From Herbinix sp. (GTDB taxonomy: Bacteria; Bacillota; Clostridia; Lachnospirales; Lachnospiraceae), in assembly GCA_029240245.1 (NCBI GenBank), contig JARBTJ010000009.1, forward strand, positions 1 to 64,000: a stretch of DNA of 64,000 bases, written 5' to 3'. Below, piece after piece: positions 21,008 through 52,286 of the stretch. Made by a program: the position numbers and the translations under genes. Under the pieces are notes generated by a model that had not been told where the DNA came from, made no database searches, and saw nothing but the letters and a program-made list of their open reading frames with translations. Position 1 is the stretch's first letter. Each line of letters begins with the position of its first letter.

Positions 21008-21086
21008 ATTACGAAACTCCTCTTCTGTATTAATTACACACATAACTTATACTACTTCGGTGCGGAAGTTAAGCCCATAAGAAGTT
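21008..21086 (+). repeat. half copy of a dispersed palindromic intergenic repeat
   Basis: This stretch matches one arm and part of the centre of the palindromic element at 30707-30855 (reverse complement): shared blocks include ACGAAACTC, CTGTATTAATT, CATA and GCGGAAGTTAAGCC. The match stops just after position 21085, so only one half is present. The block CGGAAGTTAAGCCC also matches the conserved core of clostridial 5S rRNA from memory. Confidence 0.6.
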
Positions 21087-29007: not shown

Positions 29008-30603
29008 TTAATTATTTCTATGTTCTCTCCACCATACTTCAATTTGACTATTTATATTATCAATAACCTTATCAATTCCTGCCTGCTCTAACTCTAACGT
29101 AAATTCGGCTACGTCTGCCTCTATATCCTGACTTTCACCTTTCCATAAGTATTTATATACCTCACTTAATTCACTTATTAAGCTTAATTCTTCCAGAACT
29201 TCATCATAGTTAATCGGCATAGTTAAAAGCTTCGATTCAGATACCTCATTATAAATTTGATTTAATCCATCGATTGGATTGAATACAGGACTATCTATTC
29301 TATTACCCAAAATCTCTCGTACAAGAATAGCTCGTTCCCTATTTTTAAAATATGATACGCTTCCATCCTCATTAATCTGGTAATCCTGACCTTCTATTCC
29401 ATAACATAAAATAGAAGCCAATTCCTCATCCGTAGCTAAAGCAGCTAATAATCGAAAAGCTTCCTCCGGGTGTTTCGACCACGCGGTTATTCCGTTTATA
29501 CTAGGATAATGGGGTTGAATATAAGCTTCAGCTGCAATTTTGTATTTTATATCAAAAACACTTGTATTCTGATTACTATTTCCAGTTAAAGTTGCACCAT
29601 TATAAGCTTTAATTCCTTTAATGTCCTTTTCCAACTGCAAAGCCTTATTCGGGTAAGGATACGAAGTTCTAACAAAAACTTTTCCGGTTTCAAATATATT
29701 AGGATCTAATGTATTTTGATTTTTAGCATATTGCTTTATTAATCCTTTATTTCTTAAGCGTTCCAATGTTTTCAAGTGCTCCATGATATACGGTTGATCC
29801 ATAAGCTTCACGACTTTAGGTATCTCAGATTGCTGGTCAATTAATATCATGGTACTGCTCCCACATAAAAAACTATATCCTGAAGATAGAGGAATACTTT
29901 CTATACTTAATGGAATAATCGTATTCTCACAATTTTGTTTAAATTCCTCTAAAATGTTTTCTAAATCGGATAGCTTTGTGACTGTATCAGGAACAGCTAT
30001 ATTATATTTATTTGCTAAATCCATATTAAAGGTGAAGCCATAAGCTAATTGATAATCTGCATATAATGGAATAGAATAGATATTTTCATCTATCCTATGC
30101 GTATTCCACAATTTATCAGGTATTGAATCCTTTACTTTAGTTCCAATGCTTGTCTCAAGATATTGATTTAATGTGATAAATACACCCTCCTGAACGTACT
30201 CCAAGTAATAGTTATGTAAATCCGTATAATATGACCAGCCTACATTATATATATCTGCATCTAACTCTTTCGCTAGAGTCGGGACATCATATCTACTTTT
30301 TTGACCGTCATTAGAAAAATAATCCGAATAATTTGTGGTTACTAATTTAATCTTAAAATCATATCCCTTTTCTTTTAATTTTTGATTAAAAAGACTTATA
30401 GTATCCTCTGGTAAATCACTTAGCCCAGACATACTATCTCCCATCCAGGTGATTATTATTCTAGTATCCTCTTTATCAACATGTAGCGTTTCAGTATCGC
30501 TGTTATTCATTATATTATCTTCACTCTTTTTGCTAGAGCATCCAATTAAAAGGTATGCGGATAATATTGTAATACACAAAAATAGCAGGTATACTCTTTT
30601 CAT
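29008..30603 (-). CDS. extracellular solute-binding lipoprotein (paralogue A)
   Basis: This 531-residue lipoprotein has signal peptide and lipobox LLIGC, then a short spacer and a solute-binding-protein-like fold of the family 1 type (ITWMGDSMSGLSDLPEDTI, ADIYNVGWSYYTDLHNYY, IYSIPLYADYQLAYGFTFNMDLA, GITAWSKHPEEAFRLLAAL, GIEGQDYQINEDG). It is clearly paralogous to the protein encoded at 32192-33859. No import permease is nearby: the gene runs directly into an ABC-2 exporter-type pair. It may therefore sense or present a ligand rather than import it (inference). Ribosome site AGGAGG. Confidence 0.8.
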   Translation of the reverse strand: MKRVYLLFLCITILSAYLLIGCSSKKSEDNIMNNSDTETLHVDKEDTRIIITWMGDSMSGLSDLPEDTISLFNQKLKEKGYDFKIKLVTTNYSDYFSNDGQKSRYDVPTLAKELDADIYNVGWSYYTDLHNYYLEYVQEGVFITLNQYLETSIGTKVKDSIPDKLWNTHRIDENIYSIPLYADYQLAYGFTFNMDLANKYNIAVPDTVTKLSDLENILEEFKQNCENTIIPLSIESIPLSSGYSFLCGSSTMILIDQQSEIPKVVKLMDQPYIMEHLKTLERLRNKGLIKQYAKNQNTLDPNIFETGKVFVRTSYPYPNKALQLEKDIKGIKAYNGATLTGNSNQNTSVFDIKYKIAAEAYIQPHYPSINGITAWSKHPEEAFRLLAALATDEELASILCYGIEGQDYQINEDGSVSYFKNRERAILVREILGNRIDSPVFNPIDGLNQIYNEVSESKLLTMPINYDEVLEELSLISELSEVYKYLWKGESQDIEADVAEFTLELEQAGIDKVIDNINSQIEVWWREHRNN

Positions 30604-30706
30604 CGAAGCCTCCTAGTTCTATTCCCCATATCTTGGGTATCCAATATAGATGATAAAATTGTGTTATATTGTTTGTTTCTATATCACCTTGTTATAAAAT
30701 AATGAT

Positions 30707-30855
30707 AGGTGTTTACGAAACAATATAGTTTTTGCTATTGCACACACAACACATACTATTCCTCCGCTTAAGCACTTCCTACGGCTTAACTTCCGCTCCG
30801 GAGTAGTATATGTTGTATGCGCAATTAATACAGATTTTGAGTTTCGCAAACGCCT
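30707..30855. repeat. full palindromic intergenic repeat
   Basis: This is an element of about 150 bases whose two halves are inverted copies: the left end AGGTGTTTACGAAAC pairs with the right end GTTTCGCAAACGCCT, then ATTGCACACACAACA with TGTTGTATGCGCAAT, then TACTATTCCTCCG with a matching block. The reverse complement of its centre contains GCGGAAGTTAAGCC. A short frame inside it is not a gene. Related copies are at 21008, 39985 and 52201. Confidence 0.7.
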
Positions 30856-30903
30856 TATAAAAATAATTAATATAATTGTATCAACGAAATACTTCATATT
30901 GAT

Positions 30904-32191: not shown

Positions 32192-33859
32192 TTACTTCTT
32201 ATTCCACCACTCCTCAATCTGCTTATTAATGCTATCTATTACCTTGTCAATTCCAGCCTCCTCAAGCTCTTTTTTAAAATTATATAATTCCGTAGATAGA
32301 TCCTGACTTTCGCCTTTCCATAGATATTCATACTTTTCATTAATTTTACTAACAGAATTTAATTCATTTAAAAATTCTTCAACGTTTACTGGCATGGTTA
32401 AAAGCTTAAACTCAGGCGTATTTTCATACATTTCATCTATATTATCCACCGGATTAAATACTGGCCCTTTTACTCTATTTCCAAAAACCTCAGAGGCTAG
32501 AATACCACGACCTCGATCTTCCATATATGTTAAACGCCCATTATCATTTATTTGATAATCCTGACCTTCTATTCCATAAAGCAGAATTTGTGCCAATTCT
32601 TCATCCGTCGCTAACGCACAAAGAAGTTGAAAAGCCTCCCTAGGATGTTCTGACCATGAGGTTATCCCGTTTACACTTGAATTATGAGGAAGAATATAAG
32701 AATCAGAGGATAAGCGATATTCCGTATCAAAAAATTTGATATTTTCAGATAAAACTCCATTATATTCTATTATACTATCAATATCTTCATACCTTTGTAA
32801 TTCCCTCTGCGGATATAGATAGGAGGCACTTACAAAAACTTTTCCTCTTTCAAATACATTAAAGTCCATACTTGTAGGATTTTTATCGTACTGCTTTATC
32901 AAGCCTTTTTCTTTGAAACGCTTCAAGGTTTGGAGATGGTCTAGGATATAAGGGTTCTCCATAGCATTGATAGCTATGGGTATTTCGGTTTCCTGATTAA
33001 ACAAAATTAATGTTCCACTTCCTAAAAAATAATCAAATCCCTTCAGGAGAGGCTTACTTACAATACATAGTGGAATTACTTTGTCTTGGCACTTTTGTTG
33101 AACTTCCTCCAGCAACTCTTCTAAATCGGATATTTTTGTTACCCTATCCGGAATCGAAAGATTATATTGTCTCGCGATGTCCATATTAAATGTATAACCA
33201 AAAGCCATGGGGTAATCCGCATACAGTGAAACCGTGTAAATGTTATCTCCCAGCATATGTGTCTTCCAGACCTTTTCGGGAATTGCTGCTTTCGCAAGTT
33301 TCCCTTCGTCCGTTTCAAGGTATTCGTTTAATGGTAGAAAGATACCCTCATGCACGTACTCATAATAGTAATTACTTCTATCAGTAAAATGAGTCATACC
33401 TACATTAAAAATATCTACATTAAGGCTTTTCGCAAGCTCCGGAATATCAAATCTTTCAATATTTTCATACGAAAAGTAATCAGAATAATCTTCTACTATT
33501 AACTTTAATTTAAATTCGTAACCTTTTTCTTTTAATTTGTCATTAAAAAGTTTTATGCTATCCTCAGGTAACCTATTTAACCCTGACAATCGATCTACCA
33601 TCCAGGTAATTGTTGGTATGCTTTCTTCATTATCTTCCTGCATCGTAGGTATATCTGTAGTACTAGATTTTTCGTTCCTATGTTCTGTTTGTGATCGCTC
33701 TTGGTTGATTTGTTCATCGTCATATAATTCTTTATTTAATAATTCCTCGTCGTATGGTTCTTCATTAGGAGGTCCTATCTTATTTGTACAACCTACAAAT
33801 AACCAAATAATTAGAAATGCTAATACTAATAATTTCATATCATATCTATTTCGTGCCAT
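32192..33859 (-). CDS. extracellular solute-binding lipoprotein (paralogue B)
   Basis: This 555-residue lipoprotein has lipobox LFVGC and a longer charged spacer (Glu/Asp/Asn-rich) before a solute-binding fold that parallels paralogue A motif by motif: ITWMVDRLSGLNRLPEDSI, LNVDIFNVGMTHFTD, IYTVSLYADYPMAFGYTFNMD, GITSWSEHPREAFQLLCAL and GIEGQDYQINDNG. The longest frame starts at 33874, but that ATG overlaps the GGGAGGTG ribosome site, so ATG 33859 is chosen. It has a strong promoter and appears to head the lipoprotein/ABC group, sharing upstream sequence elements with the GH43 gene. This points to a polysaccharide-linked role, an inference. Confidence 0.8.
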   Translation of the reverse strand: MARNRYDMKLLVLAFLIIWLFVGCTNKIGPPNEEPYDEELLNKELYDDEQINQERSQTEHRNEKSSTTDIPTMQEDNEESIPTITWMVDRLSGLNRLPEDSIKLFNDKLKEKGYEFKLKLIVEDYSDYFSYENIERFDIPELAKSLNVDIFNVGMTHFTDRSNYYYEYVHEGIFLPLNEYLETDEGKLAKAAIPEKVWKTHMLGDNIYTVSLYADYPMAFGYTFNMDIARQYNLSIPDRVTKISDLEELLEEVQQKCQDKVIPLCIVSKPLLKGFDYFLGSGTLILFNQETEIPIAINAMENPYILDHLQTLKRFKEKGLIKQYDKNPTSMDFNVFERGKVFVSASYLYPQRELQRYEDIDSIIEYNGVLSENIKFFDTEYRLSSDSYILPHNSSVNGITSWSEHPREAFQLLCALATDEELAQILLYGIEGQDYQINDNGRLTYMEDRGRGILASEVFGNRVKGPVFNPVDNIDEMYENTPEFKLLTMPVNVEEFLNELNSVSKINEKYEYLWKGESQDLSTELYNFKKELEEAGIDKVIDSINKQIEEWWNKK

Positions 33860-33886
33860 GTTACACCTCCCCATATTTTACCATTT

Positions 33887-34225: not shown

Positions 34226-34267
34226 AAAAAAACTTGAGTAACTAGCAATAAGTTTCTCAAGCTTTTT
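34226..34267. terminator. bidirectional terminator
   Basis: The stem AACTTGAG (34231-34238) / CTCAAGCTT (34256-34264) has an A run before it and a T run after it, so it can end transcription from either side, including the helicase gene on the minus strand. Confidence 0.65.
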
Positions 34268-34280
34268 ATTCATATAATAA

Positions 34281-34400
34281 GGTTATAGTGTCAAAAGCAC
34301 CTTCGGTGCTTTCGTGCTACAATATACTGATATGGAAGCTTGCTTCCGTATCAGTATATTGTAGTACGAAAAGTGCGTAGTACCTTTTGACACTCTAACC
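34281..34400. repeat. 120-base near-perfect inverted repeat
   Basis: Arms of about 58 bases pair almost throughout: GGTTATAGTGTCAAAAG at the left with CTTTTGACACTCTAACC at the right, and CTACAATATACTGATA with TATCAGTATATTGTAG nearer the centre, closing on GGAAGC-tt-GCTTCC. The left arm also contains a small AAGCAC-cttcg-GTGCTT hairpin. No coding capacity and no second copy were seen. It could be a miniature transposon remnant or a very large terminator for the helicase gene. Confidence 0.65.
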
Positions 34401-34440
34401 ATAATAATGAAACCCTATTTAATTATATACTGCTTTAATG

Positions 34441-36600
34441 TCATTCTACTTCCCTACCCAGATACTCTAATTTGATCCGGAAATTAATGCTTCTGGTTGT
34501 TTCCATCCGGTCAAACTGGATCTCATAGCTGGAGGTCTCCTGATTAATATTTACAATGACACCTTGCCCGAATACGCTGTGTTTGACGATATCTTTAATC
34601 TTAAGGCTTTTATTACTGCCGTTAAGCTTCATCTCATTCTGTTCAATGTATTGACAGGCATCTCTTTCTAAGCGTCCTGCTAATTCTACTGTATAATTTA
34701 AGTAGGCCTTCTCCACATTAAAGATAAACCGTGAGGGATATCGGAAGGACCCATCATAATTAATTCCCTCCGCATCACTTAGGAACAGTGCATTCTCCGC
34801 TCTTGTGTAGGCAACGTAGGCAAGCCTTCGCTCCTCCTCCATCTTATCCTGGGTATCGATATGCTTGCTTGGGAAGACTCCTTCATTCAAGCCGCATACG
34901 AATACGAAGGGAAATTCCAGACCCTTTGCGGTATGAATGGTCATCATCTGAACGGAATCTATGCTTTCCTTCTGATCTAAGTTAGTAAACAGTGATATTT
35001 TCTCCAAATAATCGGTCAAAGCGCACTCTTCACCTGCTGTATTTTCATACTCGAATATCGACTGCTTCAGTTCTGCGAGATTATCTAATCGGTCCTGTTC
35101 TCCGTTGGTTCGAAGGAGGGCTTCGTAGCCGCTGTCATTTAAGACGCCGGTAAGAAGCTCGGAAAGCTTCATTTCTTCATAAACTGCTTTATATTTATCT
35201 ATCAGAGCGATAAAATCCTTTGCACCTGTCTTCTTAAATATTTCATCGTTAAGATTTGTTTGAAGAGCACTGTACATAGTACAATTATTTTTCTCTACAT
35301 GATCCTTTAAAAATGCCATGCGCTTCTCCCCTACATTTCGTTTGGGAAGATTTACGATTCTGGTAAAAGAAATGTCATCTGCATAAGCAATCATACGAAG
35401 GTAGCATAGCACATCCTTAATTTCCTTGCGTTTATAAAATTCGATTCCACTGTAAATGGTATAAGGAATCTTCTCTTTAATGAATATTTCTTCAAAGCTT
35501 CTGGATACAAAGTGTGAACGATAAAGAATGGCGATATTGCGAAGACTCTTTCCGCTTTCGATAATCAATTTAATCTGCGTCGCAATCCACTCTGCTTCTG
35601 CCTTGGTCGTTCTGGCATGATGAAAAATGACCGGAATCTCTATATTCTTCATGGGTATTAAGCTTTTCTCAATACGCTTTTTATTCTTTGTTATTAAGGA
35701 ATTTGATACATTGATAATATTCGGTGTGGAACGGTAATTCTTATTCATAAGTATGGTCTGCGCTGACGGGTATTCCTTATCGAAATTAAGAATATACTCC
35801 ACCTTTGCCCCTCGCCAGGAATAGATGGTCTGGTCCGGATCGCCCACGATAAATAGATTATGATGATAGTCACTGAGTATCTGCGCCAGCTTATACTGCC
35901 TCACATTAACATCCTGGAACTCATCCACCATGATATATTCCAGCTTCTTCTGCCATTTTAAGCGGATATCCTCATGATTTTCATAGATATAAAGAGCAAA
36001 ATTAATTAGATCATCAAAATCTAGGGCATAACATTTTTTCTGCTCGTATAAATAGCGGTAGAATATGGCGTCCTTTTCATTCTCCGCATTCAGGAACTTA
36101 CTTTTCAACTCATCATGATTGGTATTTAGGATATCCTTTAAGTAATCCTCACGACATTTTCGAAAGGTAATCATATCCGTAATGGTCGAAAAGGTGTAAT
36201 TCTTTGAATTTAACCCCATATCCTCAAATATGGAATGAAGCATAGCATTCACATCCTCCATATCCAGAATCATAAAGCTTTTGGGATAGTTCAGAACATG
36301 AATCTCCTCCTTCAGCACCTGAACGCAAAACCCGTGGAAGGTACAGATATACCCCGTATCATTATCTCCGATCATGGTTCGGATTCGCTTCTTCATTTCA
36401 TTGGCTGCCTTATTAGTAAAGGTTACACATAAGATATTGGAGGTGGCGATACCAAGTTCATTGACCAGATAGGCAAATCGATTGGTTAAAGCCTTGGTCT
36501 TGCCAGACCCGGCACCGGCAATCACGCGAATATAGCCTTCAGTGGAAGCTACCGCCTGTCTCTGCTCCTCATTTAAATTCTCCAAGATATCTGCTGCCAT
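34441..36600 (-). CDS. pcrA: ATP-dependent DNA helicase, UvrD/PcrA family
   Basis: This 719-residue superfamily 1 helicase unwinds DNA 3' to 5' in repair and replication restart. Visible motifs are the Q motif LNEEQRQAV, Walker A GAGSGKT (about 29-35), motif Ia CVTFTNKAANEMKKR, Walker B VDEFQD, motif III VGDPDQTIYSWRGA, motif IV NYRSTPNI, motif V MTIHTAKGLEFPFVFV and motif VI EERRLAYVAYTRAE. The C-terminal end has a short SH3/Tudor-like stretch (HSVFGQGVIVNIN) seen in PcrA proteins that touch RNA polymerase. The length is close to standard PcrA. Start set by AGGAGG. This may be a second paralogue rather than the main PcrA; that cannot be told here. Confidence 0.9.
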   Translation of the reverse strand: MAADILENLNEEQRQAVASTEGYIRVIAGAGSGKTKALTNRFAYLVNELGIATSNILCVTFTNKAANEMKKRIRTMIGDNDTGYICTFHGFCVQVLKEEIHVLNYPKSFMILDMEDVNAMLHSIFEDMGLNSKNYTFSTITDMITFRKCREDYLKDILNTNHDELKSKFLNAENEKDAIFYRYLYEQKKCYALDFDDLINFALYIYENHEDIRLKWQKKLEYIMVDEFQDVNVRQYKLAQILSDYHHNLFIVGDPDQTIYSWRGAKVEYILNFDKEYPSAQTILMNKNYRSTPNIINVSNSLITKNKKRIEKSLIPMKNIEIPVIFHHARTTKAEAEWIATQIKLIIESGKSLRNIAILYRSHFVSRSFEEIFIKEKIPYTIYSGIEFYKRKEIKDVLCYLRMIAYADDISFTRIVNLPKRNVGEKRMAFLKDHVEKNNCTMYSALQTNLNDEIFKKTGAKDFIALIDKYKAVYEEMKLSELLTGVLNDSGYEALLRTNGEQDRLDNLAELKQSIFEYENTAGEECALTDYLEKISLFTNLDQKESIDSVQMMTIHTAKGLEFPFVFVCGLNEGVFPSKHIDTQDKMEEERRLAYVAYTRAENALFLSDAEGINYDGSFRYPSRFIFNVEKAYLNYTVELAGRLERDACQYIEQNEMKLNGSNKSLKIKDIVKHSVFGQGVIVNINQETSSYEIQFDRMETTRSINFRIKLEYLGREVE

Positions 36601-49960: not shown

Positions 49961-50237
49961 AATATCAAAAAGCGAAGAAAAGAAATAGTAGATATTTCAG
50001 AATTTTCAGAGAGAAGATGGCTGGTGCAAATCTTTAAGGACGAAATATCGAACCCATCTTGGAGCTGTGAACCGAACCCCCGCGAAGTAGGCCTCACCGG
50101 AATTCCACCGTTATAGGGATGCAGTATCCGGTTTTCTATATGCTTCGTACTGTATGAGTGCAGAGATTTCTCTGAAATTAGGTGGTAACGCGGACTTATC
50201 CGCCCTAAGTCGATTTATTTGACTTGGGGCTTTTTTA
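49961..50237 (+). promoter_or_regulatory. T-box leader (proline-responsive) of proS
   Basis: This is a typical tRNA-sensing T-box. It has a stem I with GAGAGAAGATGG pairing to CCATCTTGGAG, and the specifier codon CCC (Pro) at 50053-50055 in GAACCCATC. The conserved T-box sequence AGGTGGTAACGCGG lies at 50180-50193, followed by a terminator: CCCTAAGTC (50203-50211) / GACTTGGGG (50221-50229) and a run of six T. Uncharged proline tRNA is expected to let transcription read through into proS. Confidence 0.92.
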
Positions 50238-50457: not shown

Positions 50458-52200
50458 ATGAAGTTAAGAAATCTAGTAGGAGACAGATTTAAGGAAAGAC
50501 CGTCCGATTGTGTCATCGACAGCCATGCGCTAATGGTACGTGGTGGTTATATGAAATATGTAGCGAACGGTATCTATTCCTCCTATCCACCTCTTAAGAG
50601 AATCCTGAAGAAGATTGAGCAGATAATCAGAGAAGAAATGGATGGGATTGATGGTCAGGAAGTGCAGTTTCCGGTTGCTCTACCCGGCTCCTTATGGGAG
50701 GAATCAGGGCGTATGAATAGTGTCGGAAGCGAGCTCATACGTTTTAAAGACAGAAACGGCAGCTCCATGGTGTTAGGTATGACCCACGAGGAAGTAGCCG
50801 TTCAAATGGTTCGGGAATATGCACAGAGCTATGTTAAATATCCCTTTATGATCTATCAAATCCAAACAAAATTCCGGGACGAAGCCCGCCCCCGGGCCGG
50901 ATTAATCCGAGTACGTGAATTTACAATGAAGGATGCTTATTCGTTCCATACCTCCCAGAAGGACTTGGAGGCCTACTATGAAAAATGCTATCATGCCTAC
51001 GAAAGGATTTTTGCAAGAACCGGGATTCCTGAAGTAATCACAGTTGCATCGGATTCCGGTATGATGGGCGGTAATATTTCACATGAATTTATGTTGTTGA
51101 CTCCGATCGGTGAAGATTCGATCGCAATCTGTACGGATTGTGATTATAAAGCTAATTTGGAAGCTGCGGTAAGCGTTATTCATAATAGTAATACCCATCC
51201 CTCAGAGGAAATTCAGCTGGTACACACCCCGAACGCTTCTACGATTGAGGAGGTAGCAGTCTTCTTAAATATCCCTGTAGAAAACACCTGTAAGGCTGTC
51301 GTATATCAAACGAATCTGACCGATGAATATGTTATAGTATTTATCCGCGGCGATTTGGATATCAATGAAACCAAGCTGACTAAGCATCTAAAAGAGGAAA
51401 TCCATCCTGCTCTGATTACAGAGGAAAGCGGCTTAAACGACGGCTATATCGGCCCTTATAAGCTTTCCGGACAGTTTATTGTTCTTTTCGATCTATCTCT
51501 GCAAAATATCAGTAACCTTGCCTGTGGGGGTAATCAAGAGGGTTATCACTACCTTGGTTTTCAAATTGAAAGAGATTACGGATCTGTGGATTATCTAGAT
51601 CTTGCTAAGATAAAAGAAGGCGGAATTTGCCCAAAATGCGGTAGGCACTCCATTACCATTTCCCGCGGCATAGAAGTGGGTAATATCTTTCAGCTCGGAA
51701 TTAAATATTCAAAAGCAATGAATATGCAGTATAGCGACAAGGATGGCAATCTTCAAAATCCAATCATGGGTTGTTATGGAATCGGCGTCGGTCGCCTTGC
51801 AGCCTCTGTCTGCGAAGCCCGTCATGATGATTATGGCCCGATCTGGCCCATTACCATCGCCCCTTGGCAGGTCCATCTCTGCTGTCTCCGCGCGGATGAC
51901 GAACATGCAAAAGCCTGTGCAGATTCTATCTATGAAACATTACTTAAGGAAAAAATTGAGGTTCTCTATGATGAAAGAAATGTAAGACCGGGAGTTATGT
52001 TCTCCGATGCCGATTTATTCGGTATACCTATCCGGGTAATTGTAAGTCCAAGAAATGTTGGGGAAGGTATTGTAGAAATCATCACACGCGATAAGAGCAT
52101 TAACAAAAGGGTAACTATTTTGGAAATCACAACTGCTATAAATGAGCTTTTAGCCATGCTAACAGCAGATTTAGAGGGGCTTACATCTGCTCTCGAGTAG
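50458..52200 (+). CDS. proS: prolyl-tRNA synthetase
   Basis: This 580-residue class II synthetase attaches proline to tRNA-Pro. Visible are motif 1 around YSSYPPLKRILKKIEQIIREEMDGIDGQEVQFP, motif 2 FRDEARPRAGLIRVREFTMKDAYSFH, the insertion (editing, YbaK-like) domain about 220-400 (NASTIEEVAVFLNIPVENTCKAVVY, EYVIVFIRGDLDINETKL), motif 3 GCYGIGVGRLAASVCE, and the anticodon-binding domain (IWPITIAPWQVHLC, YDERNVRPGVMFSDADLFGIPIRVIV). The frame is open from 50341, but the AGGAGG site fixes ATG 50458. The T-box leader controls it. A repeat half-copy starts directly after its stop codon. Confidence 0.95.
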   Translation: MKLRNLVGDRFKERPSDCVIDSHALMVRGGYMKYVANGIYSSYPPLKRILKKIEQIIREEMDGIDGQEVQFPVALPGSLWEESGRMNSVGSELIRFKDRNGSSMVLGMTHEEVAVQMVREYAQSYVKYPFMIYQIQTKFRDEARPRAGLIRVREFTMKDAYSFHTSQKDLEAYYEKCYHAYERIFARTGIPEVITVASDSGMMGGNISHEFMLLTPIGEDSIAICTDCDYKANLEAAVSVIHNSNTHPSEEIQLVHTPNASTIEEVAVFLNIPVENTCKAVVYQTNLTDEYVIVFIRGDLDINETKLTKHLKEEIHPALITEESGLNDGYIGPYKLSGQFIVLFDLSLQNISNLACGGNQEGYHYLGFQIERDYGSVDYLDLAKIKEGGICPKCGRHSITISRGIEVGNIFQLGIKYSKAMNMQYSDKDGNLQNPIMGCYGIGVGRLAASVCEARHDDYGPIWPITIAPWQVHLCCLRADDEHAKACADSIYETLLKEKIEVLYDERNVRPGVMFSDADLFGIPIRVIVSPRNVGEGIVEIITRDKSINKRVTILEITTAINELLAMLTADLEGLTSALE

Positions 52201-52248
52201 TATAGTTGTATGTGTAATTAATATCTTATATGAGTTTCGTAATTGCCT
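52201..52248 (+). repeat. half copy of the dispersed palindromic repeat
   Basis: Directly after the proS stop codon, GTTGTATGTGTAATTAATAT and TGAGTTTCGTAATTGCC match the right arm of the 30.7 kb element (GTTGTATGCGCAATTAATAC ... GAGTTTCGCAAACGCC). The other arm is missing. Confidence 0.55.
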
Positions 52249-52286
52249 AAAATAATCTTTATTGAAGCAATATATTGCCAACAAAA

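Follow-up and report, generated by a model that had tools for sequence, protein, structure and literature searches.

ERIC, a repeat of enterobacteria, is 127 bp long and forms an imperfect palindrome. Prokaryotic MITEs are described, in PMC10969869, as elements shorter than 500 bp, with inverted ends of about 4–30 bp and with direct repeats on their flanks, which fade as the copies grow older, located between genes, able to form a stable stem-loop, and found in truncated size classes; type II MITEs, according to the same text, share only the ends with their partner. The stretch analyzed here, a 64-kb contig segment hereafter called the window, contains at 34281-34400 a 120-bp palindrome, which is best explained as one copy of a non-autonomous transposon (MITE) family. 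The assignment, to which a probability of about 0.93 is given, rests on ends, target duplications, copy number, size and placement.

The element and its surroundings

The features of the element and of its immediate context are the following.

34274-34280, no strand: left target-site duplication ATAATAA, identical to 34401-34407 (sequence; family-wide excess of duplications)
34281-34400, plus strand: MITE copy, 120 bp, oriented as the family consensus
34281-34297, plus strand: left terminal inverted repeat GGTTATAGTGTCAAAAG, one mismatch to the consensus
34297-34309, plus strand: left side mini-hairpin GCACC-TTC-GGTGC (fold, copy alignments)
34310-34371, plus strand: inner long hairpin of about 30 pairs, two-base centre at 34340-34341 (repeat finder, fold)
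34373-34383, plus strand: right side mini-hairpin GTGC-GTA-GTAC, in the consensus GTGC-GTA-GCAC (fold, copy alignments)
34384-34400, plus strand: right terminal inverted repeat CTTTTGACACTCTAACC, one mismatch to the consensus
34401-34407, no strand: right target-site duplication ATAATAA (sequence; family-wide excess)
about 34233-34261, minus strand, context: hairpin with a T run behind it, probably terminating the helicase transcript (by eye, with the stem present in the fold; unlisted by a simple terminator scan)
34441-36600, minus strand, context: UvrD/PcrA-type helicase gene (reading-frame list, domain scan)

An inverted repeat with a two-base centre had been described at this place in an earlier note, and both the repeat-finder arms and the fold energy agree with it. 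The arms reported, 34275-34339 and 34342-34406, are 80% complementary, without gaps, on either side of the two-base centre; no other inverted repeat with arms of at least 35, within 60 bases, is listed in the window. The fold of 34230-34450 reaches -81.3 kcal/mol; 200 shuffles average -37.2 (sd 4.0), which places the sequence at z = -11.0, and none of them is as stable. The term "near-perfect", used in the earlier note, is loose: the long arms do pair, but about 12 bases in each arm form side hairpins and are unpaired across the palindrome. Similarly, the nested hairpin seen on one side is present at 34297-34309, but a second, shorter one is found on the other arm, at 34373-34383.

The distance of 40 bases from the helicase gene is correct, the gene being on the minus strand with its stop codon ending at 34441. 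The element thus lies between this stop codon and the terminator-like hairpin listed above. The latter had been called an ordinary terminator: hairpin and minus-strand T run are visible by eye and the stem is present in the fold, but the simple scan omits it. The same scan, which therefore misses the hairpin behind the helicase, finds no terminator-like site in the element; no reading frame of 80 aa or more inside the 120 bp appears in the list for the window, and no Rfam family matches the element at gathering threshold. The copy behind the helicase gene is probably neutral, and a palindrome at this gene needs no special local function.

A second interspersed repeat, of about 150–165 bp, is found in the window at 30699-30860, 21008-21084 and 52177-52256, and in more than 10 of the loci fetched from the same genome. 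Its ends are like AGGCGTTTGCGAAAC ... GTTTCGCAAACGCCT in other copies; in the window copy they are unlike each other, and no inverted repeat is listed there by the repeat finder. Five copies of the MITE (L031, L042, L046, L061, L070) lie at or near an edge of this second repeat. The window also contains two lipoprotein-like genes, 29008-30603 and 32192-33874, similar by eye, the second of which, the only one scanned, matches DUF3502, and a T-box leader at 49966-50210 (131.9 bits).

Copies, target duplications and relatives

The genome to which the window belongs (G000) comprises 3.78 Mb in 147 contigs and is 77% complete. A 151-base query gave at least 77 blastn matches, both strands counted, with 40 of the 86 candidates scored; identities range from 73 to 95%, when the self-match of the window copy is set aside. 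A covariance model, built from 34 copies of this genome, matches it 94 times, both strands counted, and among the matches listed at least 42 distinct full-length loci, window copy included, can be recognized. Only one model match falls in the window, to which the claim that no second copy exists must be restricted, since another copy is present on the same contig (C72:72986-73105) and dozens occur throughout the genome. The copies share 17-bp inverted ends, GGTTAAAGTGTCAAAAG, the long inner stem and the two side mini-hairpins, and occupy different, mostly AT-rich, intergenic sites: 38 out of 39 do not overlap by more than 30 bases a reading frame of at least 80 aa.

The window copy is flanked on both sides by a perfect 7-bp repeat, ATAATAA. 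Target duplications were evaluated on two sets of copies. For the first, 43 copies were aligned (the window copy and those contained in 39 fetched stretches) and eight were dropped, because of more than 4 mismatches in either end: a perfect 6-mer abuts both ends in 19 of the remaining 35, against 0.47 expected when flanks are swapped between copies. The second, also of 35 copies, was chosen by script from 68 stretches of the same genome plus the window (up to 4 mismatches per end and 6 in total, 100–135 bp). With one base of slack allowed at each junction, duplications of at least 6, 7 and 8 bp are found in 26, 6 and 3 copies, where chance predicts 1.06, 0.29 and 0.09; their length varies between 6 and 8 bp, and 9 copies do not have one of 6 bp or more. 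Joining the flanks of six copies did not retrieve a clean empty site from the genomes compared, which include no strain-level relatives. Of the options listed in the earlier note, copy number, common 17-bp ends and target-site duplications support the miniature transposon.

Shorter forms are also present. Thirteen loci of 35–45 bp were found in the same genome, seven of which feature target duplications of at least 6 bp (0.33 expected). A 37-bp form, searched with up to 3 mismatches, occurs at seven loci in this genome and at one in another genome of the genus (G031), and is absent from the other 32 genus genomes searched. The centre of the 37-bp forms is GCACC. This motif occurs in both arms as a short direct repeat, and a deletion running from one occurrence to the other would leave it as the centre; such an event, before or after insertion, would explain these forms. 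Their size is not unheard of, as 39-bp forms of QMITE1 are mentioned in PMC10969869. Composite forms were observed in G031, where at two loci (L309, L311; 198 and 227 bp) a full element is directly followed by a second, partial one; another locus (L329, G012:C6:119872-121410) consists of head-to-tail repeats of one half of a related element, with a period of about 77 bases.

Within the genus, the model finds matches at E <= 0.001 in 7 of 34 genomes. Both strands counted, they are 94 in G000, 73 in G031, 26 in G009, 16 in G012, 3 in G029, and 2 each in G023 and G027; in the six genomes other than G000 the relatives have an altered stem sequence, with pairing kept. Eight of 25 genus relatives are flanked by duplications of at least 6 bp (0.21 expected).

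Outside the genus, the exact end GGTTARAGTGTCAAAAG was found in 2 of 392 genomes of the order, in a sample including only one other genome of the genus: they are the own genome and one matching at Petrocella's position. Searching the 17-bp end in named genomes produced 44 stretches, many of which are single ends in genes and resemble chance matches. Five hosts contain end matches, namely Fusibacter ferrireducens (11), Fusibacter sp. 3D3 (29), Petrocella sp. FN5 (26), Anaerobium acetethylicum (2) and an Anaerolineaceae metagenome bin (29), while a control with the reversed end gives 0 in these same hosts. In Petrocella, in the two Fusibacter and in the Anaerolineaceae bin, a Chloroflexota host which may be misbinned, these ends delimit other hairpins, again about 120 bp long. 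Altogether, the loci outside the genus contain 45 distinct end pairs 36–290 bp apart, some probably due to chance; 39 of them are 83–132 bp apart, and 11 of the 45 are flanked by duplications of at least 6 bp, against 0.61 expected. The two end matches of A. acetethylicum (L098, L140) belong to a 271-bp hairpin element, which has this 17-bp end as well and is flanked by a duplication.

Ten hand-picked elements from outside the genus fold beyond simple base shuffles (z from -5.1 to -13.8), mostly into a stem, an internal loop and an inner stem, in which the two side hairpins cannot be clearly made out. Of 13 picked loci, the model built on the own genome recognizes 10 at E <= 0.003, one element being counted twice among them; these matches partly reflect the ends, by which the loci were chosen. 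The 120 bp have no blastn match in plasmid and phage collections, and an exact 39-base pattern has none in a genome contig collection, from which own and near genomes are possibly excluded; nine viral contigs bearing the end contain no convincing element.

The loci examined revealed no autonomous element bounded by such ends, the own genome being 77% complete. Distant end pairs were sought in 29 loci of the own genome, 44 of named genomes and 30 of the five hosts, and also in nine viral contigs, two genus loci and 40 larger stretches, at distances which together cover about 0.2–5.5 kb (from 0.6 kb in the 40 larger stretches). A Pfam scan of 23 frames inside long end pairs, 3 in L115 and 20 in L097, L122, L162, L176, L179, L209, L211, L218 and L240, revealed no transposase family, 5 frames being without any match at E 0.001; the scan excluded two short frames, that of L219 and an additional one in L176 which overlaps the first. 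All 38 frames near solo ends were scanned as well: none belongs to a transposase family and 6 match nothing. Conversely, end pairs were looked for around transposase loci of PF00872 (7), PF01610 (5), NF033594 (10) and PF01609 (30 of 48 matches) in eight to ten genomes, and none was found. Two candidates were rejected: in L229, where a solo end is followed by a start codon, only a short frame and unrelated genes are seen by eye, and a Fusibacter end match near a transposase falls inside the transposase gene itself. The ends begin with GG or GA and the duplications measure 6–8 bp; this combination would be compatible with several insertion-sequence families, none of which is established as the source.

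Conserved folding and its interpretation

The consensus fold is composed of an outer stem formed by the ends, the two mini-hairpins GCACC-TTC-GGTGC and GTGC-GTA-GCAC, both with three-base loops, and an inner stem about 30 pairs long: as a whole, a four-way junction. Conservation of pairing was evaluated within the own genome on 34 of 40 copies (L040, L050, L054, L060, L062 and L065 were left out). Here 92.1% of the pair cells are paired, and 14 pairs show double changes, against 5.1 in shuffles. Controls in which the structure is slid reach up to 13 such pairs, with 14 cells against 21; the covariation score is 0.101, while that of the best slid control is 0.044 and that of the control with a nearly equal pair count (13 vs 14) is 0.025. 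The test across species was performed on 29 sequences from seven genus genomes (6 own, 23 others), leaving out composite, long, small and end-less loci: 93.3% of the cells are paired, and pairs with double changes are 31, against 13.6 in shuffles and 9–10 in slid controls, part of the excess over the latter being expected, since the structure was drawn from the tested sequences. In the cross-species alignment the inner stem changes, while side hairpins and ends change little; in one locus (L332) the inner stem is quite different in sequence, with ends and side hairpins retained.

The MITE would move in trans, its ends being recognized by a DDE-type transposase provided by another element; insertion into a staggered cut, followed by repair, would generate the 6–8 bp duplications. 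The interior palindrome, with the two mini-hairpins, may extrude as a four-way junction. Pairing kept under sequence drift could mean either that the fold matters for mobility or that, at least in part, template switching keeps the arms alike. Double changes confined to one copy occur as well (e.g. in L038, L041, L046); they fit palindrome repair by template switching, an idea taken from PMC8794818. Kept pairing and near-constant length in unrelated hosts exceed the needs of a plain MITE. A more ambitious proposal, for now doubtful, is that one transposition system with the end GGTTAAAGTGTCAAAAG, so far tied to no known insertion-sequence family, serves hairpin elements of a near-constant 120 bp across hosts ranging from Lachnospirales to Fusibacter, possibly also Chloroflexota. 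It would place no constraint on the interior sequence but require the shape of the fold, with its outer stem, its junction or internal loop, and its inner stem. If so, what the enzyme or process recognizes would include, besides the ends, an extruded DNA structure.

Copies of the MITE might also have been co-opted as bidirectional terminators or as protectors of mRNA 3' ends. The side hairpins, AAAAGCACC-TTC-GGTGCTTT and AAAAGTGC-GTA-GCACCTTTT, resemble terminators in both directions and, as reported above, are among the parts that change little across species; the sites are intergenic and near gene ends, at a median distance of 72 bases from a gene 3' end. The T runs after the stems are short, however, the scan lists no terminator-like site in the element, and a separate terminator-like hairpin serving the helicase is present behind the window copy. 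By counts obtained with a simple reading-frame caller, rather than a gene finder, and having no random-placement control, the neighbours of 39 copies are tandem frames in 27 cases, convergent in 6 and divergent in 4, with one copy overlapping a frame and one at a contig edge: the four between divergent genes are also at odds with such a role. Co-option is judged unlikely.

The same placement, together with the very stable fold and the compensatory changes, could be seen as the mark of a functional structured RNA, either a small RNA or an mRNA 3'-end element, spread and kept for its RNA fold. When all cells are counted, G-U exceeds A-C (82 vs 57 in the own genome, 55 vs 37 across species), an excess due to a few widely shared variants; for losses present in up to 3 copies, G-U and A-C are balanced, both in the genome (37 vs 32, p = 0.63) and across species (30 vs 37, p = 0.46). 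The model scores higher on the plus strand (133.2 vs 104.2 bits), although it was built in that orientation; of the frames with a 3' end within 150 bases, 12 share the strand of the element and 17 are on the opposite one. The palindrome is accordingly read as kept as DNA, not as RNA of one strand, even if the count of all cells leans the other way. The Rfam family Clostridiales-1 (RF01699) matches 34304-34385 with 32 bits, below its gathering score of 48, and ends and target duplications are unexplained by an RNA reading. The dedicated structured RNA proposed in the earlier note, given no strand bias in rare pairing losses and no clear orientation bias to neighbour genes, is thus very improbable. 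Matches to microRNA and other Rfam families were discarded, being all below gathering scores and of the generic kind produced by long hairpins. It is worth asking whether Clostridiales-1, listed as an RNA family, could itself represent mobile hairpin elements.

Elements moved by Y1 tyrosine transposases are not known to make target-site duplications. A single-strand hairpin element of this kind, of the REP/REPIN or IS200/IS605 type, would account for the small-loop hairpins near each end and for the palindromic, intergenic character of the family; the clear excess of duplications and the 17-bp inverted-repeat ends, which reach the junction, make it scarcely credible. Finally, the palindrome could have arisen here alone, by accidental inverted duplication or as an origin-like cruciform; this would fit the single copy in the window and is refuted, in practice, by dozens of dispersed copies, which also dispose of the single occurrence envisaged in the earlier note.

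Comparison with described families

The family, and the presence of its ends in distant bacteria, appear undescribed in the searchable literature, while the kind, MITE, is already known. It was not found in open-access literature on MITEs, where a sequence not printed as letters would escape. What is added is a MITE family whose ends, length and fold persist between widely separated hosts, the inner sequence being variable; two questions become testable, namely which enzyme reads the ends, and whether the fold is selected for mobility or is a by-product of template switching.

Among described families, compared by description, ERIC is nearly identical in length and is likewise an imperfect palindrome, found in other hosts. 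It too is present in dozens or more intergenic copies, as reported in PMC10969869. According to the same text, QMITE1 and QMITE2 of Coxiella burnetii are similarly multicopy and stem-loop forming. QMITE2 is flanked by 7–9 bp direct repeats and is mostly found in 3' untranslated regions, and QMITE1 features size variants down to 39 bp; both differ in their longer full-length forms, of about 190 and 400 bp. BOX, RUP and SPRITE of Streptococcus pneumoniae, also compared by the description given there, are small interspersed repeats of other hosts, one of them with terminator-like hairpins, and they insert into one another (PMC10969869); the Herbinix MITE, too, adjoins copies of the second repeat. 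With prokaryotic MITEs in general, as outlined there, the family shares small size, inverted ends, flanking repeats, intergenic position, stem-loop and size classes; it differs from them in a four-way-junction fold kept by compensatory changes, and in sharing its ends with hairpins of similar length, about 120 bp, in remote hosts.
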